Made by a program: the position numbers and the translations under genes. From positions 1 to 64,000 of the forward strand of contig NZ_AQXX01000139.1 of assembly GCF_000376785.1 (NCBI RefSeq): a stretch of DNA of 64,000 nucleotides, in the 5' to 3' direction. Shown in pieces: positions 4,819-64,000 of this stretch (the first letter of the stretch is position 1; every line of letters begins with the position of its first letter). This DNA comes from Hahella ganghwensis DSM 17046 (GTDB lineage Bacteria; Pseudomonadota; Gammaproteobacteria; Pseudomonadales; Oleiphilaceae). The notes beneath the pieces are model-generated. The model did no database searches and was not told the DNA's origin. It saw only the letters and a list, made by a program, of their open reading frames with translations.

Positions 4819-5772
4819 TCAATTTTTCTTGGTCAGAGTATTGGTCGTGACATGGGGAAAACTGATGACTGTGCCATTGACTGGAATATCCATCACAATG
4901 GTCTGACTGTACTGCAATTGGGTGTAATCTGAGGAACCAAATGATTCCAGCCAGTAGCGGGCAAAATAGCGTGAAACTTTGGCATGTTGCTGCTCAAAGC
5001 CGATATTGGTGACCGGGTGGCCGCCATCATTAGAATCCACGTCGAACTGAATGTAACTGCTGGCCGGGTTTTTCTGTATTGCCGTAGCCAGCGGTAGGTT
5101 CGGATTTTCAGTGAACTCCGGATTGAGGTTGCCCACGTTTTTAACCTTGTACTGGTCCGTATTCACCCCCGTGGGCAGAATCAGGGGAGGGGGTTCTATG
5201 ACCGGTGACCCTGTTTTATTTGCATAGCTGCCAGCGGACAGAATCGAGTTACCGTGGGGGACAGACATCTGTTTGATAATATCGTATTTCTGAGATGGTG
5301 CCTGGCTATTGGGGACTGTCTGGTCTCCTAATCCTGGCTTTTCTCCATTACCGTAAGGCCCCAAAAGCTGCTTGGCATCAGTAAGGTAGAGCCAGGAGCC
5401 ATTCTCTGCATGGACCAACTGGTCTTTGGCTGGACCGTCGGCAAAATAGATTCTTTGTTCATAGAACAGGGTGTTCGCTACCTGTGTGCCGTAGCCTCCT
5501 CGGTTAGGGGCAGTACCATGAATGGCAGAGAATGTGATTTCTTCGTAGTAGGAGAAATTTTTCAGGATGTAGCTTTCTTCCTGCGGCAGTGGCATCAGAC
5601 AGTAGGAATAGGGAGATGCTGGCCCGCCTTGATTGTCATTTGCCAGATTCTGGTTCGTCCAGGTGCCCACTAAAAATTCCAATGGACCCAATGCGGTGGT
5701 TGGTGCAGGAGGCTCACTCTGGTCAGGTTCGTGAATCAGAGGTTGGGTAAGATTGGGGGCGGTTGTTGTCAT
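4819..5772 (-). CDS. Nitrobindin/FABP-like heme-binding family protein, long form
   Basis: The product has 317 residues from the ATG at 5772, which has GAAGGGA about 6 bases upstream; a longer in-frame start would add 21 residues. The segment GPLEFLVGTWTNQN matches the opening strand of the nitrobindin-like beta-barrel family, and NFSYYEEITFSAIHGTAPNRGGYGTQ continues a beta-rich barrel. Nitrobindins bind heme with a histidine and act on NO or peroxynitrite. This protein is about twice their usual 160 residues, with a proline-rich N-terminus and an added C-terminal half. It is divergent from, and shares an intergenic repeat with, the dehydrogenase cluster at 6134-13291, suggesting a joint role. 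Heme binding is not shown by sequence alone. Confidence 0.6.
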   Translation of the reverse strand: MTTTAPNLTQPLIHEPDQSEPPAPTTALGPLEFLVGTWTNQNLANDNQGGPASPYSYCLMPLPQEESYILKNFSYYEEITFSAIHGTAPNRGGYGTQVANTLFYEQRIYFADGPAKDQLVHAENGSWLYLTDAKQLLGPYGNGEKPGLGDQTVPNSQAPSQKYDIIKQMSVPHGNSILSAGSYANKTGSPVIEPPPLILPTGVNTDQYKVKNVGNLNPEFTENPNLPLATAIQKNPASSYIQFDVDSNDGGHPVTNIGFEQQHAKVSRYFARYWLESFGSSDYTQLQYSQTIVMDIPVNGTVISFPHVTTNTLTKKN

Positions 5773-5871
5773 GATTAGTCCCTTCGTGTGCTGTTGATCC
5801 GGGAGCCTGATCACAAACAGACTCCAGGTCTCCATCAGTCCTTTGCAGCTATCCGATAGAGTCCCAAGATC

Positions 5872-5901
5872 AATATAGTTGAAATAACTTTAATTGGTTA
5901 A
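5872..5901 (-). promoter_or_regulatory. Candidate promoter for the nitrobindin-like gene
   Basis: Reading the minus strand, TTAACC (5901-5896) and TATATT (5877-5872) are separated by 18 bases. The -35 overlaps the upstream copy of the 13-bp repeat. The -35 match to consensus is only moderate. Confidence 0.35.
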
Positions 5902-5907
5902 AAAATG
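5895..5907 (+). repeat. 13-bp direct repeat, copy 1 (TGGTTAAAAAATG)
   Basis: Identical to 6025-6037, exactly 130 bp away. This copy overlaps the predicted -35 of the leftward promoter. It is a candidate operator for a shared regulator. Confidence 0.6.
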
Positions 5908-5994
5908 AACTTGCGCAAGAGGTTCAATATTCCAAGATGGTTTCGTGCCAGGTTGTAACTCATTGAAATTAAAAATTATTGGAAATACCGAATG

Positions 5995-6005
5995 ATGACG
6001 GTCAT
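5995..6005. promoter_or_regulatory. 11-bp perfect palindrome (ATGACGGTCAT)
   Basis: ATGAC and GTCAT flank a single G. It lies 15 bases upstream of the predicted rightward -35, a usual place for an activator or repressor dimer. No regulator gene is adjacent, so the binding protein is unknown. Confidence 0.4.
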
Positions 6006-6019
6006 TTTTGTTAATTTTC

Positions 6020-6046
6020 TTGACTGGTTAAAAAATGGTCTATACT
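6020..6046 (+). promoter_or_regulatory. Candidate sigma-70 promoter of the dehydrogenase operon
   Basis: TTGACT at 6020-6025 and TATACT at 6041-6046 with a short 15-base spacer. The second copy of the 13-bp repeat (6025-6037) fills the spacer, so a protein bound there would compete with RNA polymerase. Confidence 0.5.
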
Positions 6047-6133
6047 AGGCGTCAGCGGACGACAAATTAGTCGTCTGCCCATCAAATTCCACAGGCAAGT
6101 GGTAAGTGGAAAGCGAGCGTAGGGAGACACCTC

Positions 6134-6631
6134 ATGGACTGGTTAGACGATTTCTATCAGCTAAGTGCTGCTCTCACTGACTACAAGGTTGCACAACTCC
6201 AGGGGACAGGAGTAGGTGAGGATTACCTTGAAGTGCTCAGCACGATCATCCCCCATGCCATTCTGGCTGAACTGTTTGGTTCATATCGAAGTATCGTAGC
6301 GGAAAACTCTGCAACCCCCACGGAACAGCTGATACGCGATGGCATATTATCCAACGCCAAGCTTGGTCCAGTGGCAAGAAACATTATCAAGATGTGGTAC
6401 TTGTCAATCTGGTATCAGATGCCGGAGGACTGGCGCCAGTTATACGGCAAGCCCAATCAGGGCGATCCCAAGTATCAGGATGTGCAGTTCGTCGTTTCGC
6501 GCAATGCTTATATTCAGGGGCTTGTCTGGCAGACCCTCGGTTCACACCCGATGGGAGCCAAGCAACCCGGATACGGTACCTGGGGAGATAAACCATCGGA
6601 CAGATCTTCAATTGTCAGTACTACGAGCTAG
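6134..6631 (+). CDS. Small subunit of a membrane FAD dehydrogenase (sorbitol/gluconate dehydrogenase type)
   Basis: The 165-residue product resembles the small subunit family of FAD-linked sorbitol and gluconate dehydrogenases (PF12318-like): a helical N-terminal half, KLGPVARNIIKMWYLSIWY, and the closing VWQTLGSHPMGAKQPGYGTWG segment. In known complexes this subunit carries a Tat signal and escorts the flavoprotein to the periplasm. Here the sequence starts directly at MDWLDDFYQLS with no twin arginine or hydrophobic leader. GGGAG lies 7-8 bases before the ATG. The catalytic partner follows 128 bases downstream. Confidence 0.8.
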   Translation: MDWLDDFYQLSAALTDYKVAQLQGTGVGEDYLEVLSTIIPHAILAELFGSYRSIVAENSATPTEQLIRDGILSNAKLGPVARNIIKMWYLSIWYQMPEDWRQLYGKPNQGDPKYQDVQFVVSRNAYIQGLVWQTLGSHPMGAKQPGYGTWGDKPSDRSSIVSTTS

Positions 6632-27068: not shown

Positions 27069-27173
27069 GGCGAAGCGAAGGGATTTATGTATGGCACTGA
27101 ACTTGCTCCTAACTCCATAGATGATCGGGACAAAGTCCTGAATGCTGTGAATCATAATTGGGGAGGAGTCATC

Positions 27174-56205: not shown

Positions 56206-56571
56206 TTAGGATTCAGCATTAGATATAAGTATAATGCGCGGGCCAATTTCGATGGAGGGCCACAAGAACTGGCCCGGGTGACACAATTATTACCCGCCGG
56301 GTGGACAGATGATCCGGAACCTGTGGGCTGTTTACGCGATTCGATTGTCTATGCTGGCGTGACTATACTCCCAGCCAGGGGGTTGTGACGAAATAACCGT
56401 TACAACAGGGGCTATCGACCTTGTGTGAACAGGCTCAATCTCGAGCGGCTCAAGACCTAACCGTTATGAGTCGGCAGGCAGCCTGAGTCAGATACTACTA
56501 TGACACAGGTCTATCGTTGGGGTTCCAAACATGAACCTCAGCTAACTGATTCTCGTGAAAGGCAATACAAA
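56206..56571 (+). promoter_or_regulatory. Promoter and long structured leader of mqo
   Basis: A perfect TATAAT at 56230-56235, with a weak -35 TTAGGA at 56206-56211 (18-base spacer), predicts a start near 56242. That would give a leader of about 330 bases. The leader opens with GGGCCA (56239-56244) and a complementary TGGCCC some 25 bases later, then ACCCG-C-CGGGT. AACCGTTA occurs twice further down. No ORF with a ribosome site was recognised. It may be a cis-regulatory RNA, but no known riboswitch class was recognised. Confidence 0.4.
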
Positions 56572-58074
56572 ATGACCGTAAAATCTGCTGATGTACTACT
56601 TGTCGGCGCCGGTGTCATGAGCACGACTCTGGGAATGATGCTCAAACACCTGGACCCGTCCCTGAAAATCATCATGGTCGAACGGCTTGACCATGTCGCC
56701 CACGAAAGTACGGATGGCTGGAATAATGCCGGCACAGGGCATGCCGCCTATTGTGAGCTGAACTATACGCCTCGTAAGCCCGACGGCACTATTGATATAT
56801 CCAAAGCCATTGCCATTAATGCTGCTTTCGAAGTGTCCCTGCAATTCTGGTCCTATTTGGTAGAAAATGGTGCTTTGCCGACGCCAACAGAATTTATTAA
56901 TCGCGCGCCACACCTGAGCTTTGTGTGGGGTGATGATGCCATCCAATTTTTACGGCAACGTTACGAACTGATGCATCAGCATCACTTGTTCAAAGATATG
57001 GAATACTCTGAAGACCCTGAGGTCCTGAAGCAGTGGATTCCATTGGTGATGAATAATCGTGATCCCATGGAGAAGGTCGCCGCCACCCGGGTGGAATATG
57101 GCTCGGATGTGGACTTCGGTTCTCTGACCCGCAACATGGTCAAGCATCTTGAAACCCTTCCTGATTATGAAGTGATGCTGTCTCATTCAGTAGAATCTTT
57201 GACCCAGCAGCCGAACGGTCGTTGGAATGTGCGGGTGAAAAACCGTAATTCCAAAGACAATCTTCATATCAATGCCAAGTTTGTTTTTCTTGGTGCCGGT
57301 GGTGGTGCACTGCCGTTACTGCAGAAATCCGGCATTCCTGAAGGAGAGGGCTACGGAGGATTTCCGGTCAGTGGACAGTGGCTTGTATGCCAGAAGCCGG
57401 AGATCGTTCGGCAGCATTATGCCAAGGTCTACGGAAAGGCACCCATCGGGGCTCCGCCAATGTCTGTACCGCATCTGGATACCCGAATCATCAATGGCAA
57501 ACCGGCTTTGCTGTTTGGCCCATTCGCCGGTTTCACGACACGTTTCCTGAAAGAAGGTTCTGTGTTTGACCTGCCGTCTTCCTTTAAGGGAGATAACTTT
57601 GGCCCAATCTGGTCCGCAGGTATGGACAACCTGGATCTGACCCGTTATCTGATCAAGGAAGTTTTCCAGTCCCACAAAGCAAGGGTCAACTCACTTCGAA
57701 ACTTCTATCCGGAAGCCAAAGATAGTGACTGGGATCTGGCGGTCGCCGGTCAACGGGTGCAGATCATTAAGAAGTGCGAAGAGGAAGGCGGTAAGCTCGA
57801 GTTCGGAACCGAAGTGGTTTCCTCCAAAGACGGCTCACTGGCTGCCTTGCTAGGGGCTTCTCCCGGTGCTTCCACAGCGGCAATGACGATGGTGAATATC
57901 ATCGAAAACTGCTTTGCAGATCGACTGAATTCTGAGGAGTGGCAAGCAAAAATGAAGGAAATGGTACCCTCATATGGGCGTTCCCTCATTGATGATGCCG
58001 AGCTGGCCGAAACGGTTCGCAAACGAACCCTGAATACCATGGGGCTCAAGACTGCTGAGCCGGTATCTGTCTAA
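56572..58074 (+). CDS. mqo: Malate:quinone oxidoreductase
   Basis: The product has 500 residues from ATG 56572, with AAAGG about 8 bases upstream; a 24-residue in-frame extension is not family-like. It has the N-terminal VGAGVMSTTLGMML FAD loop, STDGWNNAGTGHAAYCELNYTP, GSDVDFGSLTRNM and a C-terminal LGASPGASTAAMTM. It oxidises malate to oxaloacetate and reduces quinone at the membrane, an alternative to soluble malate dehydrogenase. Monocistronic, with an intrinsic terminator. Confidence 0.96.
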   Translation: MTVKSADVLLVGAGVMSTTLGMMLKHLDPSLKIIMVERLDHVAHESTDGWNNAGTGHAAYCELNYTPRKPDGTIDISKAIAINAAFEVSLQFWSYLVENGALPTPTEFINRAPHLSFVWGDDAIQFLRQRYELMHQHHLFKDMEYSEDPEVLKQWIPLVMNNRDPMEKVAATRVEYGSDVDFGSLTRNMVKHLETLPDYEVMLSHSVESLTQQPNGRWNVRVKNRNSKDNLHINAKFVFLGAGGGALPLLQKSGIPEGEGYGGFPVSGQWLVCQKPEIVRQHYAKVYGKAPIGAPPMSVPHLDTRIINGKPALLFGPFAGFTTRFLKEGSVFDLPSSFKGDNFGPIWSAGMDNLDLTRYLIKEVFQSHKARVNSLRNFYPEAKDSDWDLAVAGQRVQIIKKCEEEGGKLEFGTEVVSSKDGSLAALLGASPGASTAAMTMVNIIENCFADRLNSEEWQAKMKEMVPSYGRSLIDDAELAETVRKRTLNTMGLKTAEPVSV

Positions 58075-58120: not shown

Positions 58121-58429
58121 CCACCTGCCTTAATACAGTTTTTACACCACACCACACCACTTTTCTTAAGACCGGTTTCTGCGCCGCTTTATTGGAATGT
58201 TGTACCAGACGATGGTTCATTTTGATGCTTTAACTGGTAAATCAAATACCAAATTAGGGCAGGTCATGGTGCGAACTATGGATTTGACGCGCACCAGATG
58301 CGTGCATCTTGAGAGATTGATTCGAAATCTGTAAACAAAATAGTTAGTTACAAAGATTGGCAAGTACTTTGCTCCATCGCTGATCAAAGTCTGTGACTTA
58401 TCGATAACGAATCTGTGGAGTTTCCATTC
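58121..58429. other. 309-base intergenic region before the flavoprotein-cytochrome operon
   Basis: An ACCAC-type short repeat occurs at about 58146-58161. An inverted repeat TTTGAT-N14-ATCAAA lies at 58221-58246, with wide spacing, so it is not a standard FNR box. A GTGGAG ribosome site precedes the start at 58430. No gene was recognised. Confidence 0.4.
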
Positions 58430-60454
58430 ATGCACAGCGATATCGCTGCCATGCCAGAATCAGTCGCCCATGTGGAGAGATCAGAGCTGTTGAGTGAGTC
58501 AGATCTTGCTCCCGTCATAGTGGTAGGGGCAGGGCCGTCTGGACTGCGCTGTGTGGAAGAGTTGCTTCGCCATCAACTGAAGCGGCCGGTTTGGCTGTTT
58601 GGTGAGGAGCGCTGGGAGCCGTATAACCGGGTTCGACTTTCGAGCCTTCTGGCAGGAGACATTCGTTTAAGCGATATTGATCTGCGCCTCTCAGCAAGAT
58701 CCATGAGCAGAGTAGTTCACGTCAGTCAGTGTAGGGTGGTAGCGATTGATCCGGCATTGCGGCAGATCACAGATCAGTATGGGCGCCGGCATTCATACCA
58801 CAAGCTGGTCCTGGCTCTGGGATCGAGCGCCTATATACCAAGTGTTCCCGGAGTTCAGCTCAAAGGGGTGTATTCCCTGCGCTCTTTGAGTGATACCGAG
58901 GCTTTGCTGGCGAGACGGGCCAGAGTCAGAAAGCTGCTGGTGATCGGTGGAGGTTTGCTCGGCCTGGAAGCTGCCAAGGCGATGGCCAGAGATGGTACTG
59001 AAGTTGAAGTCATACAGCAGGCTTCACACGTCATGAACCGTCAGTTGGATCAGCGGGGTGGGGAGCGTGTCAGCGATTATCTGCGTTTGTTGGGGATTCG
59101 GGTACGGCTGGGAAGTGGACTGGCAGAAATCCGTGGGGACACCGAAGTTTCCTCCATCCTGTTGCGAAACGGAACCGAGATCCCCTGCGATAGCGTATTG
59201 TTGGCAGCCGGTATCGTTCCTAACGTTGAATTAGCCAGGTCTGCATGGATTAAAGTCGGTCGCGGTATTCGTGTCGATGATGCCATGCTGACTTCTGATC
59301 CTGATATTTATGCCGTCGGCGAGTGTGCTGAACATAACGGCCATGTATACGGGCTGGTAGCTCCGGGTTTGGAACAGGCGGCGGTGGCGGCGGCTCATAT
59401 CTGTGACGAAGGTGCCTTGTATCGGGGCTCTATGATGGCCAGTCAACTGAAGGTGGCTGGTCTGGCAGTTACCAGTATTGGTTCATGGGAGCAACTGGAA
59501 GGGCAGACCAGAGTCAATGAGCTGGTTTTCAGTGATCAGCAGCATTATCGCAAGATTATTATGCGGGATGGTCGTCTCTTGGCGGTTATTGCCGTTGGGG
59601 AGTGGCAGGAAAAGAATCGCCTTCTGGAAGCCGTAACCACCCAGCGTTATTTATGGCCCTGGCAGAGATTGGCATTTCGACGTACCGGTCTGCTTTGGAA
59701 GCAAGAGGAGAGTCGACAGGTCAGTGAGTGGCCGGCGGATGCCCTGGTCTGCCAGTGCATGGCGGTTCCCAGAGGAACGTTGAGCTCAACCATAGACGGC
59801 GGAGCTACCACGATTGAAGCGTTGGCAGCCTGTACAGGCGCATCTACGGTATGCGGCAGTTGTAAACCTTTACTGGCTGAACTGATTGGAGCCCCTCGCA
59901 AGGCTGATCCCATTAAAGCTGGGCCTTCCCATACAGCCTGGGGGATCGCGGCTTTGATTTTGACTACGCTGCTTACAGTGGCTCCTGCAATCGGAGTCAA
60001 GGATTCTGTGCAGAACTTGTGGCCTCCTGATTTTCTATGGCGTGACAGCCTGTATAAACAAATATCCGGCTTTACTTTGTTGGGATTGGTTCTTGTGGGG
60101 TTGGCCCTGTCGCTACGCAAACGGGTCCGCTTTTTTTCGGTTGGTAAAGGTGCGCGAGGAGCTTTCGATTACTGGCGTTTGGCTCATGTGATATTGGGGG
60201 TTCTGGCGCTGTTTGCATTGCTTATCCATACCGGCATCGCCTTGGGACACAATCTGAACCGATGGCTGATGATGGACTTTCTGGCTGCCGCTGCCCTGGG
60301 AGCCTTAACGACCTATGTGATTGCCTGGCAGCACCGGATGGGGAGGCAACTGGGGGAGCGGGTCAGAGCATGGATGTATTGGCTGCATATTGTCGTGCTG
60401 TGGCCGTTACCGGTATTGCTCGGCTTACACATTCTCAGTGTTTATTACTTTTGA
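58430..60454 (+). CDS. Fusion of NAD(P)H:FAD oxidoreductase, BFD [2Fe-2S] domain and membrane cytochrome b-like domain
   Basis: The product has 674 residues. About 25-330 is a pyridine nucleotide-disulphide oxidoreductase like the N-terminus of assimilatory nitrite reductase: FAD loop VVGAGPSGLRCVEELL, NAD(P)H loop VIGGGLLGLEAAKAM and a C-terminal ADI-type segment DIYAVGECAEHNG. About 430-485 is a BFD-like domain with CQC and CGSC cysteine pairs. About 500-674 has four to five membrane helices with histidines in RLAHVILG, LLIHTGIAL, YWLHIVVLW and LGLHILSVY, fitting a di-heme b-type cytochrome. The likely path is NAD(P)H to FAD to Fe-S to heme to periplasm. The GTG at 58415 is an alternative start. 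Confidence 0.82.
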   Translation: MHSDIAAMPESVAHVERSELLSESDLAPVIVVGAGPSGLRCVEELLRHQLKRPVWLFGEERWEPYNRVRLSSLLAGDIRLSDIDLRLSARSMSRVVHVSQCRVVAIDPALRQITDQYGRRHSYHKLVLALGSSAYIPSVPGVQLKGVYSLRSLSDTEALLARRARVRKLLVIGGGLLGLEAAKAMARDGTEVEVIQQASHVMNRQLDQRGGERVSDYLRLLGIRVRLGSGLAEIRGDTEVSSILLRNGTEIPCDSVLLAAGIVPNVELARSAWIKVGRGIRVDDAMLTSDPDIYAVGECAEHNGHVYGLVAPGLEQAAVAAAHICDEGALYRGSMMASQLKVAGLAVTSIGSWEQLEGQTRVNELVFSDQQHYRKIIMRDGRLLAVIAVGEWQEKNRLLEAVTTQRYLWPWQRLAFRRTGLLWKQEESRQVSEWPADALVCQCMAVPRGTLSSTIDGGATTIEALAACTGASTVCGSCKPLLAELIGAPRKADPIKAGPSHTAWGIAALILTTLLTVAPAIGVKDSVQNLWPPDFLWRDSLYKQISGFTLLGLVLVGLALSLRKRVRFFSVGKGARGAFDYWRLAHVILGVLALFALLIHTGIALGHNLNRWLMMDFLAAAALGALTTYVIAWQHRMGRQLGERVRAWMYWLHIVVLWPLPVLLGLHILSVYYF

Positions 60455-60500
60455 CAGGTCGGCGGCCGGAGATCTTGTTGATGCAGAATGAGATAGCAGA

Positions 60501-61853
60501 ATGAAGTGGTTGAGTTGGGGGGGCGTCAGTATTCTGCTCAGTGTTTTTTGGGGCTGGAGTCTATTTGCCAAAGATCAGAATGCGCGGTACCTGATTGGTG
60601 AGACGACTGACGGCCATCACCAGATTGAGCTGGCCTGTAACAGCTGTCATGTGGCGCCCTTTGGTGGTGTCGAGCTGATACAGGAGGCCTGTACCAGTTG
60701 CCATGGTGCGGAGTTGGCTCTGGCAGAAGACAGTCATCCGAAATCCAAATTCACTGATCCGCGCAATGCTGCCCGTGTTGACCTACTCGATGCTCGTTAT
60801 TGTGCAACTTGTCACATTGAACATCGCAAAGACGAAACCCATGCCATGGGGGTGACGCTGCCCGAAGACTTCTGCTTCTACTGTCATGAAGATATTGCAG
60901 AAGAACGTCCTACCCATGAAAACGTGCCGTTTACCGATTGTCTGAATTCAGGTTGTCATAACTACCACGATAATAAGGCCCTGTATGAGGACTTTCTGGT
61001 CAAGCATGCCGATCAGCCGGCGCTTGGTGTAAATCCTCACCAACCCGCACGTAACCTGCTTGAGCAAGTCATCGCAGAACAAGGCTTTGTCGAACCTATG
61101 ACCCAGGCCGGTGCGGATCATCCTGCATCTTTGGATGTTTCCTCGGCGATTCTGGATGACTGGTTGCAAACGGCTCATGCCCAGGCGGGGATCAGTTGCC
61201 AGGGATGTCACCAGGGGAAGGATGCTGATGACTGGGTGGAGAAACCGGGCCTGAGTGCCTGTCAAACCTGCCATCAGATGGAAGCAGAAACCTTTATGCA
61301 GGGTAAGCATGGGATGCGGTTGGCAGTGAGTGATGAATTACCTTTGTCACCTATGACCCCAGCCATGGGGCGGCTTCCGTTCAAGCTTGAGTCCATTGAC
61401 ACTGAACTCTCATGCACAACCTGTCACGGGGCACATCGGTTTGATGCCCAAAAAGCGGCTGTGGAAAGTTGTTTGGGGTGTCATAACGATGAGCACTCTC
61501 TGAACTATCAGGCGTCCCCCCACGCCTTATTGCATGAGCTTGAAGTGGCGGGACAGGGAAATCCAGGAACCGGAGTGACTTGCGCTACCTGTCACATGCC
61601 CAGATTGGAGGGGGCCAGGTTGCAAAGGAGCAAGCCGGAAGGTTCTGAGCTGGAAGCCAAAGCTGTACAGGTGATGCACAACCAGAATGACAACCTGCGC
61701 CCTAACGAGAAAATGATTCGTTCAGTATGTATGGATTGTCACGGTTTTCCCTTTGTCCTTGATGCCTTGGCTGATCCTGAACTGATCAGGAGCAACTTTA
61801 ATGGTCAGCCCTCGGTACATGTGAAAAGTATCGAATGGGCGACAGAGCGGTAG
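60501..61853 (+). CDS. Multiheme c-type cytochrome (ten CxxCH motifs)
   Basis: The 450-residue product has an N-terminal membrane anchor or signal (about 5-22, SILLSVFWGWSLFA). Ten canonical heme motifs can be read: CNSCH, CTSCH, CATCH, CFYCH, CQGCH, CQTCH, CTTCH, CLGCH, CATCH and CMDCH. An eleventh, CLNSGCH, has the unusual Cx4CH spacing. Many other histidines could be axial ligands. It resembles cytochrome c3/tetraheme-type electron carriers and octaheme reductases only in general form, with no clear catalytic lysine motif. It starts 46 bases after the flavoprotein gene. Confidence 0.85.
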   Translation: MKWLSWGGVSILLSVFWGWSLFAKDQNARYLIGETTDGHHQIELACNSCHVAPFGGVELIQEACTSCHGAELALAEDSHPKSKFTDPRNAARVDLLDARYCATCHIEHRKDETHAMGVTLPEDFCFYCHEDIAEERPTHENVPFTDCLNSGCHNYHDNKALYEDFLVKHADQPALGVNPHQPARNLLEQVIAEQGFVEPMTQAGADHPASLDVSSAILDDWLQTAHAQAGISCQGCHQGKDADDWVEKPGLSACQTCHQMEAETFMQGKHGMRLAVSDELPLSPMTPAMGRLPFKLESIDTELSCTTCHGAHRFDAQKAAVESCLGCHNDEHSLNYQASPHALLHELEVAGQGNPGTGVTCATCHMPRLEGARLQRSKPEGSELEAKAVQVMHNQNDNLRPNEKMIRSVCMDCHGFPFVLDALADPELIRSNFNGQPSVHVKSIEWATER

Positions 61854-62041
61854 GGCTGGTAGCCAGGAAAAAGGACGGACATCAAATATAGGCGGTTGCC
61901 ATAGATGTTTTCATAGATCGGGCGCGCAACCACCACTTCCAAACACGGCCTCGTCAGAAGGCCGGTAATAAAACGCAGAGCGTGGATTCTCTTTCGGCAG
62001 CTCCTGTCGGGTTAATGCTAAAAAGGTGAGAGGATAAACAC

Positions 62042-62644
62042 ATGAAACAACTGAAACCGGTAACCACAATTTCTGGAATGATGAAGGCTACAACATTTGG
62101 ACTGACTGTTGCCTCCGGAATGATTCTCAGTGGCTGTGAAAGCGAGCCAGAAGGAATATCACCGCAACAGTTTACGGATGCACTACACAAAGTTATGGAA
62201 TCTGACCGTGCGGTATACACGAAACAAGTGGTCAATCGTCTGGCCAAGGATGAGAAAGTCATTAAGGCCAGCGAGCATTTTATGGATGAAAAAGCCCTGC
62301 CGCTACCAGCGCAAATGTTCCGCTTCGGTGCAGAAATGGTGGCAAGCAAGACAGATGAGTTCAGTTATTCACTGCAGTCACTGTGGCCGATCAATAAACA
62401 GAATGCTCCGGTAACAGAAGTGGAAAAAACTGGTTTGAAGTTTATCTCTGATAACCCAGGAGAAAACTATTACAGCGAGGAAGAACTGGGCGGGCAAAAG
62501 TATTTTACGGCGGTATATCCGGATATTGCCGTCGCTCCCGTATGTGCTTCCTGTCACAACGAACATAAGGACACACCGCGGAGCGACTTCAAAGTCGGTG
62601 ATGTGATGGGCGGCGTGGTTATCCGGGTGCCACTCGGGTCGTGA
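62042..62644 (+). CDS. Tll0287-like (DUF3365) heme lipoprotein
   Basis: The 200-residue product has a lipobox ILSGC (Cys about residue 33). The DUF3365/Tll0287 fold includes AVYPDIAVAPVCASCHNEH with one CxxCH heme site and a GVVIRVPL ending. This domain binds c-type heme in redox sensors and carriers. GAGAGG precedes the ATG. It sits between the multiheme and mono-heme cytochrome genes and is probably a periplasmic electron carrier or redox sensor. Confidence 0.82.
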   Translation: MKQLKPVTTISGMMKATTFGLTVASGMILSGCESEPEGISPQQFTDALHKVMESDRAVYTKQVVNRLAKDEKVIKASEHFMDEKALPLPAQMFRFGAEMVASKTDEFSYSLQSLWPINKQNAPVTEVEKTGLKFISDNPGENYYSEEELGGQKYFTAVYPDIAVAPVCASCHNEHKDTPRSDFKVGDVMGGVVIRVPLGS

Positions 62645-62670
62645 TATTTAGATTGGATAAGGAGGATTGC

Positions 62671-63021
62671 ATGAGCTCCAGGCTCAGAGGTCGGAAAGGA
62701 AGCGTGAAACTTCTGCTTATCCTGGCTTTTGTCGTTACTAGCGGATGCCGTGGTAATGAGGAAATCTCCGAAACTGGCAAGGCAGTGTGGGAAGCCAACT
62801 GCAGGGTATGTCACCAGCAGGGGCTTGGTGGCGCGCCTATGATTGGAAACCAAAAGCAGTGGCAGCCCAGAATCGCGCAAGGATTGCCAGTGTTAATCGA
62901 GCATGCAACTCAAGGATACTCGGGATCTACAGGTGTGATGCCAGCCCGGGGAGGGAACCCGGGGTTGCCGGACGCGCAGCTCAGATCAGCCGTTGAATAT
63001 ATGGTGTCTCAAAGCCGGTAA
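62671..63021 (+). CDS. Mono-heme cytochrome c lipoprotein
   Basis: The product has 116 residues from ATG 62671, with GGAGG 5 bases upstream. It has a leader with lipobox VTSGC (Cys about residue 25). A class I cytochrome c follows: WEANCRVCHQQG (heme site) and a likely axial Met in GVMPARGG, ending with helix AVEYMVSQ. It is the probable soluble-side partner or terminal carrier of this chain. A hairpin lies downstream at 63103. Confidence 0.88.
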   Translation: MSSRLRGRKGSVKLLLILAFVVTSGCRGNEEISETGKAVWEANCRVCHQQGLGGAPMIGNQKQWQPRIAQGLPVLIEHATQGYSGSTGVMPARGGNPGLPDAQLRSAVEYMVSQSR

Positions 63022-63178: not shown

Positions 63179-64000
63179 ATGTACTGCACTTTCAACCGCT
63201 ATCTTCAGCGCTGGATATCCCGCGTTTTCTGTTTTCTACTGTTCTCTTCCGGAGTTTTGATTTCCGTCAACAGCCTGGCCGCTCAAAGTGGTGAGGAGTT
63301 GCTTCAGAAAATTCATCAGGCCCGTCTTCAGACCTATCTGCTGTTGACCGACTACTATAATTTCAGCGCCAATGTGGGCGACAAACATTTACTGGAGGGA
63401 ATGGCCGCAGGAGAGAACGCTATAGATTCGTTGATCAAGCGACTTTCAGCAGGGCATGACTCCCCGGAATATCTGGCGACACTTAGCCAAACCCAGGAAC
63501 ACTGGGTTAAATACAAATCTTTGTTGTCACAAAATATCAATGACCTTAAAACACTCGGATATCACGAGTTGCAGCTTGTGTTTCAACTCGCGCAACTGAA
63601 TGTCGATGTTGGCACCGCGCTTGGACGCCTTTACCAACTGGTGATAGATCAAAAGCAGATCAAATTGCCGGATGTGATTATCAGAACCAGGCATTCCGCC
63701 TTTACCATGGCTGTCATGATGACGAAATACTCGGCCCGCAGTACCTCCAATATCAGTCAGGTGTTTCAGGGGGAAGACCCCGAAGAGACTCTTGATATTC
63801 TGGCCGGAGAGTTTGACCGTAACCTTGGACTGCTCATCAATACAGATTACGTAGATACAGCCACCAATACCCTGCTGAAGAAGGCTCAGATCAAATGGAA
63901 CTTTATTCGCAGCTCGTATATGAATTACAACGAAAACAACGTTAACTTTGTGGTGAACCTGTATTCACGCCAGATAATAGAGTCGTTAGATATAAGCGCC
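63179..64000 (+). CDS. Secreted or membrane protein with PilJ/NarX-like helical repeats (partial, runs off the window)
   Basis: The frame opens at ATG 63179 and stays open to the window end, giving 274 residues so far. A signal or anchor segment (about 12-34, VFCFLLFSSGVLISVNSLAAQ) precedes helical sequence. The segments LQTYLLLTDYYNFSANVGDKHLL and later MAVMMTKYSARSTSN recall the type IV pili-type chemoreceptor (PilJ) or NarX N-terminal sensor domain, in which a short helical unit repeats. The missing end will show if a HAMP, signalling or kinase domain follows. The family call is tentative. Confidence 0.6.
   Translation, partial: MYCTFNRYLQRWISRVFCFLLFSSGVLISVNSLAAQSGEELLQKIHQARLQTYLLLTDYYNFSANVGDKHLLEGMAAGENAIDSLIKRLSAGHDSPEYLATLSQTQEHWVKYKSLLSQNINDLKTLGYHELQLVFQLAQLNVDVGTALGRLYQLVIDQKQIKLPDVIIRTRHSAFTMAVMMTKYSARSTSNISQVFQGEDPEETLDILAGEFDRNLGLLINTDYVDTATNTLLKKAQIKWNFIRSSYMNYNENNVNFVVNLYSRQIIESLDISA

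Follow-up and report, generated by a model that had tools for sequence, protein, structure and literature searches.

A conserved flavoprotein-cytochrome b fusion with heme-protein partners in Hahella ganghwensis: a candidate inner-membrane electron outlet linked to nitrate assimilation

The stretch of DNA analysed here (hereafter, the window) comprises 64,000 nucleotides of Hahella ganghwensis DSM 17046 (contig NZ_AQXX01000139.1, positions 1–64,000 of the forward strand). Towards its end, the open reading frames at 58415–63021 define a cassette of four genes on the forward strand, which encode in order a fusion protein, a multiheme cytochrome, a Tll0287-like protein and a monoheme cytochrome c. 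The same products in the same order had been proposed in a first-pass annotation of this DNA, and are borne out by the open reading frames and by Pfam matches. The features of the cassette are as follows.

58415..60454, forward strand: fusion protein of 679 amino acids, opening at GTG 58415, with a NirB/NasC-type FAD/NAD(P)H domain, a BFD [2Fe-2S] domain and a diheme cytochrome b membrane domain
58514..59392, forward strand: FAD/NAD(P)H oxidoreductase domain of the fusion, residues 34–326 (Pyr_redox_2, 7.1e-54)
59744..59887, forward strand: BFD-like [2Fe-2S] domain of the fusion, residues 444–491, with C446, C448, C480 and C483 (Fer2_BFD, 2.2e-9; cysteines in 24 of 24 sequences)
59927..60451, forward strand: five-helix membrane domain of the fusion from hydropathy, with H591 and H605 in helix 3 and H658 and H672 in helix 5 (histidines in 24 of 24 sequences)
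60501..61853, forward strand: undecaheme c-type cytochrome of 450 amino acids with an N-terminal membrane anchor or signal (Cytochrom_c3_2, 8e-17; ten CX2CH motifs and one CX4CH motif)
62042..62644, forward strand: Tll0287-like (heme Cache) protein of 200 amino acids, a probable lipoprotein with lipobox-like LSGC (PF11845, 2.7e-20)
62641..63021, forward strand: monoheme cytochrome c, a probable lipoprotein with lipobox-like TSGC (Cytochrome_CBB3, 1.3e-11)

A likelier start for the fusion is ATG 58430, which has a good Shine-Dalgarno sequence upstream (GGAG at 58417–58420) and agrees with the first-pass annotation. For the monoheme cytochrome c the likelier start is ATG 62671, behind AGGAGG, and the TSGC motif follows it.

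Cassettes from 26 loci were compared, namely that of the window (L042), L009–L011, L044–L063, L073 and L074. L057, which lies at a contig end, was excluded from the counts of multiheme and Tll0287-like proteins; L073 and L074 stand outside the 24-locus counts (tblastn neighbours, alignment and upstream sites) and were scanned for the same markers. Neighbouring genes were taken from a home-made caller of open reading frames and rechecked by tblastn, and as L051, L052, L054, L057, L063 and L074 are short contigs, the neighbour counts are lower bounds. The search across genomes that the first-pass annotation had called for found the fusion, multiheme and Tll0287-like genes adjacent in 25 of the 26 loci, the exception being L057, which ends at the contig edge. 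The closest relative found is that of Hahella sp. CCB-MM4 (L009), with 76% identity and several flanking genes in common, and identity of the fusion outside Hahella is 36–49%. Full-length fusions are also present in one Rhizobiaceae and one Rhodovulum metagenome-assembled genome (MAG). The distribution of the cassette across the phylum is patchy: at E 1e-70, with up to four candidates scored per genome, the fusion is encoded in at least 21 of 274 sampled genomes of the same class, and the multiheme protein turned up in 3 of the 398 genomes sampled from the phylum (both counts including this genome). None of the three other genomes of the same family among the 398 encodes the multiheme protein, nor does any plasmid record at E 1e-20.

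The N-terminal 490 residues of the fusion resemble NirB. The TIGR02374 model matches residues 35–497 with 386 bits against a cut-off of 578, over model positions 2–471 of 794 and hence not over its full length. Pfam also matches a Rubredoxin_C domain (1e-11). The FAD/NAD domain, the Rubredoxin_C-like domain and the BFD [2Fe-2S] domain are shared with the NirB/NasC-type modules (TIGR02374), of which we take Klebsiella NasC to be an example. Unlike NirB, the fusion has no siroheme domain (no PF01077, NIR_SIR, match in the Pfam scan) and carries the diheme-type membrane domain in its place. The glycine motifs of the FAD and NAD(P) sites are present in the alignment, and C446, C448, C480 and C483 together with H591, H605, H658 and H672 are invariant in all 24 aligned fusions.

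The membrane domain corresponds to five hydrophobic stretches C-terminal to the BFD domain. Helix 3 and helix 5 each carry one pair of its histidines, spaced by 14 residues. Two such pairs at that spacing on two helices are the pattern of a diheme cytochrome b. Pfam matches to this part are weak (DUF4405 in 16 of 24 sequences, Ni_hydr_CYTB in 7 and Ferric_reduct, PF01794, in 5, the best at 5e-4); we take these families to be cytochrome-b-like, and a few unrelated membrane families likewise match weakly. A profile search of the membrane part against solved structures found nothing. The mean net charge is +4.9 for the loop between helices 2 and 3 and +2.9 for that between helices 4 and 5, with –0.2 and +0.6 for the other loops, which would make the flavin domain cytoplasmic and the C terminus of the fusion periplasmic.

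A variant of the fusion was found at L074, from the same phylum, where the gene (1–1692) is N-terminally cut by the contig start. The frame encodes a Rubredoxin_C-like piece, a BFD domain, an FNR-type module (FAD_binding_6 1e-12, NAD_binding_1 8e-8, Pfam) and then the same membrane domain as the other fusions. The best solved match to the inserted module is the E. coli flavohemoprotein 1gvh (2e-21). That the same cytochrome b is also found joined to an unrelated kind of NAD(P)H module speaks for NAD(P)H as its source of electrons. The glycine motifs, the BFD cysteines, the membrane histidines, the loop charges and the L074 variant together support the route from NAD(P)H to the periplasm within one fusion protein that the first-pass annotation had envisaged, and the predicted path, within the fusion and on, is NADH–FAD–[2Fe-2S]–hemes b–hemes c.

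In the multiheme protein of the window, a single CX4CH motif (CLNSGCH, 60939–60959) adds to ten of the CXXCH type, giving eleven predicted hemes rather than the ten first assigned to it. Eleven heme motifs are found in all 25 homologues, this one included, as ten plus one in 24 of them (among these L073) and as eleven CX2CH with no CX4CH in L074, which thus still has eleven hemes. Besides the histidines of the motifs, eleven more are invariant in the 23 aligned proteins, which would be enough for eleven bis-His hemes and fits an electron wire.

The Tll0287-like protein of the window scores 73.7 bits with PF11845 (cut-off 24.1), and the CXXCH motif is present in 23 of 23 aligned homologues. In its family, its CXXCH motif and its stand-alone exported form it is like the stand-alone sCache_heme proteins, namely Tll0287 and a Pseudomonas putida protein, for which the accessible part of PMC12889525 gives Cys/His axial ligation. 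Unlike those, the cassette proteins have no conserved distal cysteine: apart from the CXXCH and the lipobox column (Cys in 11 of 23), no column of the 23-sequence alignment holds five or more cysteines, and Met92, Met189 and His175 are invariant instead. Cys/His ligation is not expected in the cassette proteins given the lack of a conserved Cys column. In the part of PMC9230427 available, a DUF3365 protein is named once, in a table. By blastp, the gene for the small cytochrome c could be recognised at 12 of the 24 loci.

The surroundings of the cassette bear on its function. By tblastn, a nitrate marker is found near 11 of the 24 loci (NrtA near 7, an ANTAR regulator near 8, NarK near 1 and NirB near 1) and a globin near 15 (a single-domain globin near 13, that of L051 at 27% identity, and a truncated globin near 2). 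A nitrate marker or a globin lies near 19 of the 24; L073 and L074 add none, giving 19 of 26. The marker proteins were taken from these loci and from the H. ganghwensis genome, so that some of the tblastn matches are self-hits, and weak NasA matches inside the fusion gene (L042, L045, L051), which correspond to its own BFD-like stretch, were not counted. At the level of genomes, 19 of the 21 that carry the cassette have an NrtA-like gene, versus 47 of the remaining 253 among the 274 (Fisher 3e-11, at a threshold of E <= 1e-60 that admits relatives of 38–54% identity too); the Fisher tests, here and below, are uncorrected for relatedness among the loci. Of 23 genomes with the cassette, a full-length match to NirB is present in 18, three of which show a single stop within it, and a NasA-like match in 19, at 34–36% identity in five of them. 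The cassette as a replacement for a missing nitrite reductase was considered and is a weak candidate, since 18 of 23 genomes have that NirB match. In H. ganghwensis itself, NirB, NirD and NasA are encoded on one strand, with NasA last, and the best globin match is 26% identical and lies within a 427 amino acid frame.

Two predicted control sites lie upstream of the fusion gene.

58291..58305, forward strand: NtrC-like site GCACCAGATGCGTGC, with two mismatches to GCACCA-N3-TGGTGC
58358..58373, forward strand: sigma-54-type promoter TGGCAAGTACTTTGCT, with one mismatch to TGGCACG-N4-TTGCW, identical in L009

We take GCACCA-N3-TGGTGC to be the NtrC consensus and TGGCACG-N4-TTGCW to be that of sigma-54. 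The site at 58291–58305 is the sole NtrC-like site with at most two mismatches in the 64 kb, and L009 has a two-mismatch site at the matching place; with up to three mismatches the window holds 27 matches versus 31 expected, which is within chance. The pattern TGGCA-N6-TTGC occurs twice in the window versus 0.70 expected, and 18 of 100 shuffles reach two, so that this count is weak alone. A further sigma-54-type site, TGGCACTGAACTTGCT, lies at 27092–27107 and has one mismatch.

Across the 24 loci the sites are enriched. The scan covered 420 bases around each fusion start. As controls it took in 257 other genes of the same loci, among them nitrate genes and the downstream members of the cassette, which have coding sequence in front of them. 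With up to two mismatches allowed, sigma-54-type sites were found upstream of 13 of 24 fusions versus 16 of 257 other genes (1e-8), and in 200 shuffles in a mean of 0.44 loci with a maximum of 3. For NtrC-like sites at the same threshold the counts are 8 of 24 versus 16 of 257 (3e-4; shuffles 0.40, maximum 2). The target of ANTAR regulators is described in the accessible part of PMC3369936 as a hairpin whose six-base loop carries A1 and G4; in ANTAR (NasR/NasT) antitermination, leader hairpins of this type precede a terminator. Hairpins with such loops are found upstream of 11 of 24 fusions versus 11 of 257 other genes (6e-8; shuffles 0.83, maximum 4); the antisense strand of the 24 upstream regions has none. 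Counted among all six-base-loop hairpins, the A1/G4 type makes up 15 of 33 upstream versus 114 of 1493 when both strands of the whole loci are taken, and none of the 26 on the antisense strand upstream; L009 has one, by a looser first criterion alone. Elsewhere in the H. ganghwensis genome, which encodes one sigma-54, NirB is preceded by NtrC-like sites and by a sigma-54 site with two mismatches, and NrtA by an NtrC-like site with one mismatch. A sigma-54 promoter with NtrC sites upstream is characteristic of the NtrC/sigma-54 nitrogen regulon; sites of both types are predicted in the window and enriched across the loci, and suggest nitrogen-type control. The metal, sulfite or extracellular acceptor contemplated in the first-pass annotation found no support; NrtABC, ANTAR regulators, globins and sigma-54/NtrC-type sites point to nitrate assimilation.

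We consider it somewhat likelier than even (a probability of roughly 0.57) that the cassette is a nitrogen-regulated inner-membrane electron outlet of nitrate assimilation; its likeliest job would be redox housekeeping through the removal of periplasmic nitric oxide or nitrite. Gene order, conserved cofactor residues, nitrogen-type control sites and linkage to nitrate genes can be read from the sequences themselves; the placement in nitrate assimilation comes from neighbours and control sites and is clearest in genomes of the window's class. In the proposed mechanism, NADH or NADPH would reduce FAD in the cytoplasmic NirB/NasC-type domain, and electrons would pass by the BFD [2Fe-2S] cluster to a heme b on the cytoplasmic side (H591/H658) and on to a heme b on the periplasmic side (H605/H672). 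From there they would reach the membrane-anchored eleven-heme cytochrome, then the Tll0287-type protein and, where present, the small cytochrome c. Such an exit would run down the potential of NADH and with the membrane potential, and would not need quinone. Nitric oxide or nitrite would be removed reductively at the periplasmic face, and the globin, co-encoded in many relatives, would handle nitric oxide inside the cell. We infer the direction of flow, the heme pairing, and nitric oxide or nitrite as the substrate.

A role in periplasmic nitric oxide or nitrite handling is favoured by analogy, as the best parallel appears to be the narK-bjgb-flp-nasC operon of Bradyrhizobium, in which, according to the accessible part of PMC4724949, a globin and a flavoprotein handle nitric oxide from nitrate assimilation. 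As at loci of relatives of the cassette, an NAD(P)H flavoprotein and a single-domain globin are encoded there with nitrate-assimilation genes; control is by NasS-NasT (ANTAR), and many relatives of the cassette have ANTAR genes and ANTAR-type hairpins. Unlike the fusion, Flp is described in that part of PMC4724949 with no mention of a cytochrome b part, and unlike the operon, the cassette of the window has no adjoining globin. A more specific form of the proposal, which we hold tentatively and with the odds against it, is that of a so far undescribed, quinone-independent electron export, driven directly by NADH and in the service of nitrogen assimilation and not respiration, which would reduce periplasmic nitric oxide or nitrite by way of an eleven-heme wire and a heme Cache protein (a family that includes nitric oxide sensors) and be genetically coupled to a cytosolic globin in many bacteria.

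Several observations weigh against the cassette being such an outlet. The locus of the window has no adjoining nitrate genes or globin by tblastn, and in the stretches scanned the same is true of L009, L062, L063, L073 and L074. Among genomes with the cassette, NrtA is missing in 2 of 21 and a NasA-like match in 4 of 23. No ANTAR-type hairpin lies upstream of the fusion in the window, and no sigma-54 match lies upstream of NrtA or NasA in the genome. The site thresholds and the marker genes were chosen after a look at the same loci. AlphaFold2 models from four sequences, of the whole fusion and of the membrane part alone, reached a mean predicted local distance difference test score of 59.7 and 60.4, too poor for testing the fold, and the heme pairing is drawn from the His spacing for that reason. 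The sequence names no terminal acceptor. Finally, the stand-alone P. putida relative of the Tll0287-like protein binds nitric oxide weakly, according to the accessible part of PMC12889525.

The alternatives rank in the order of a donor to NasA or globin, a reductase and an extracellular chain. In the first, which we regard as unlikely, the flavin–BFD part would act in the manner of NasC or Flp and donate electrons to NasA, the globin or both. The hemes of the membrane and periplasm would be an overflow valve or an alternative inlet, bringing electrons to NasA from quinol or from donors in the periplasm. NirB is the nearest named relative of the fusion by profile, and we take the NasC-type donors to be likewise among the nearest. 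A NasA-like match is found in 19 of the 23 genomes, a 20-kb stretch around the NasA and NirB genes of H. ganghwensis (L067) shows no separate NasC-type donor by eye, and the module inserted in L074 is similar to the reductase portion of flavohemoglobins. Moreover, the Bradyrhizobium Flp has been proposed to feed both NasC and the globin (PMC4724949, accessible part). A cytosolic donor would, however, need neither the undecaheme cytochrome nor the Tll0287-like protein, the genes of which accompany the fusion wherever the contig is long enough (25 of 26 loci, the truncated L074 among them), and the four genomes that lack a NasA-like match at the threshold used also speak against it.

It is less probable still that the undecaheme cytochrome is itself an assimilatory periplasmic reductase of nitrite (or of hydroxylamine or nitric oxide), driven by NADH through the fusion. 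Its profile weakly matches NrfB as well as the octaheme and pentaheme nitrite reductases (best 1e-8), and like the octaheme enzyme, NrfA and NrfB it contains short CXXCH stretches; the 22 invariant histidines could correspond to 21 ligands and one catalytic His. Full-length NirB is missing in 5 of the 23 genomes, of which G128 and G052 hold NasA. Against this, the stretches that match best are short, mostly 40–114 residues, and those in the octaheme enzyme coincide with its C-terminal hemes, which are electron-transfer hemes. The catalytic heme of NrfA and of the octaheme nitrite reductase has a CXXCK motif, although some members use CXXCH. Unlike these enzymes the cassette protein has eleven hemes, with CXXCK in none of the 23 aligned sequences. 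Also against it are the 18 genomes with a full-length NirB match (three with an internal stop), and the five genomes without one all have other NIR_SIR proteins.

An improbable alternative is that the chain serves extracellular electron transfer or the reduction of iron or manganese. Multiheme cytochromes and probable lipoproteins would suit it, as would an Alginate_exp-type outer-membrane porin (approximately 390–410 amino acids; Pfam scan on the L048 protein) encoded near 4 of the 24 loci (L048, L049, L053 and L054), which might also be a porin for nitrate or another anion. In contrast to the MtrA/DmsE decaheme cytochromes, the multiheme protein has eleven heme motifs and matches the DmsE model TIGR03508 far under its cut-off (40.5 versus 192.2 bits). 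No outer-membrane multiheme cytochrome is found among the recurrent neighbour clusters identified (not every neighbour was identified), and the neighbours and the regulation are of nitrogen type. That unrelated cytochrome genes were brought together by chance or by an annotation artefact, for which only the variable fourth gene (12 of 24) would speak, is highly improbable given an ordered three-gene core in 25 of 26 loci, with fusions at 36–49% identity outside Hahella.

Other features were noted in and around the loci. A malate:quinone oxidoreductase gene (56500–58074) lies directly upstream of the cassette on the same strand, as it does in L009, and is probably unrelated to it. After the cassette follows a gene for an exported protein of 280 amino acids with no Pfam match (63179–64000 in the window, reaching 64021 on the contig), which clustered solely with its L009 counterpart among the 24 loci. 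Rfam returned no RNA family in the window and just two tRNAs in eight loci scanned. Behind the truncated globin gene of L055, a 329 amino acid protein (5228–6217) resembles a ferredoxin plus FNR reductase by eye and is possibly a dedicated globin reductase. In the Rhizobiaceae MAG (L010, 13625–15474), a globin gene is followed by one for a protein that by eye is 5-aminolevulinate synthase-like, which would supply heme. Neighbouring pairs of NIR_SIR proteins (421–472 and 358–382 amino acids) in G045, G180 and G402 suggest a dissimilatory sulfite reductase in some genomes with the cassette.

In NOX, ferric reductases and MsrPQ, electrons derived from NAD(P)H cross the membrane by two stacked hemes b, held by paired histidines approximately 13–14 residues apart. 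The fusion is similar to NOX and the ferric reductases in its H591/H605 and H658/H672 pairs on two helices, found in all 24 sequences, and the L074 variant also in its FNR-type flavin module. The fusion of the window differs from them in that it has no FNR-type domain: its flavin module is Pyr_redox_2, N-terminal and with a [2Fe-2S] cluster, PF01794 does not exceed its cut-off, and the partner is a chain of c-type cytochromes. What would be new in comparison to NOX-type systems is the flavin family, the [2Fe-2S] cluster, the undecaheme partner and the predicted nitrogen-type control sites. The first-pass annotation knew of no named system with this fusion, and no description of the cassette was found in the accessible open-access literature, which is limited evidence in that most subscription papers lie outside that scope. 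Within their accessible parts, PMC12503164 (on humin oxidation) and PMC4013037 do not describe the system.

The usual account of nitrate assimilation is of a cytoplasmic pathway made up of transport, NasA and a nitrite reductase. If the proposed role of the cassette as an electron outlet is true, nitrate assimilation would gain a periplasmic, membrane-coupled arm, and the fusion would let electrons bypass the quinone pool through a single protein, one whose flavin family differs from that of the NOX-type enzymes.

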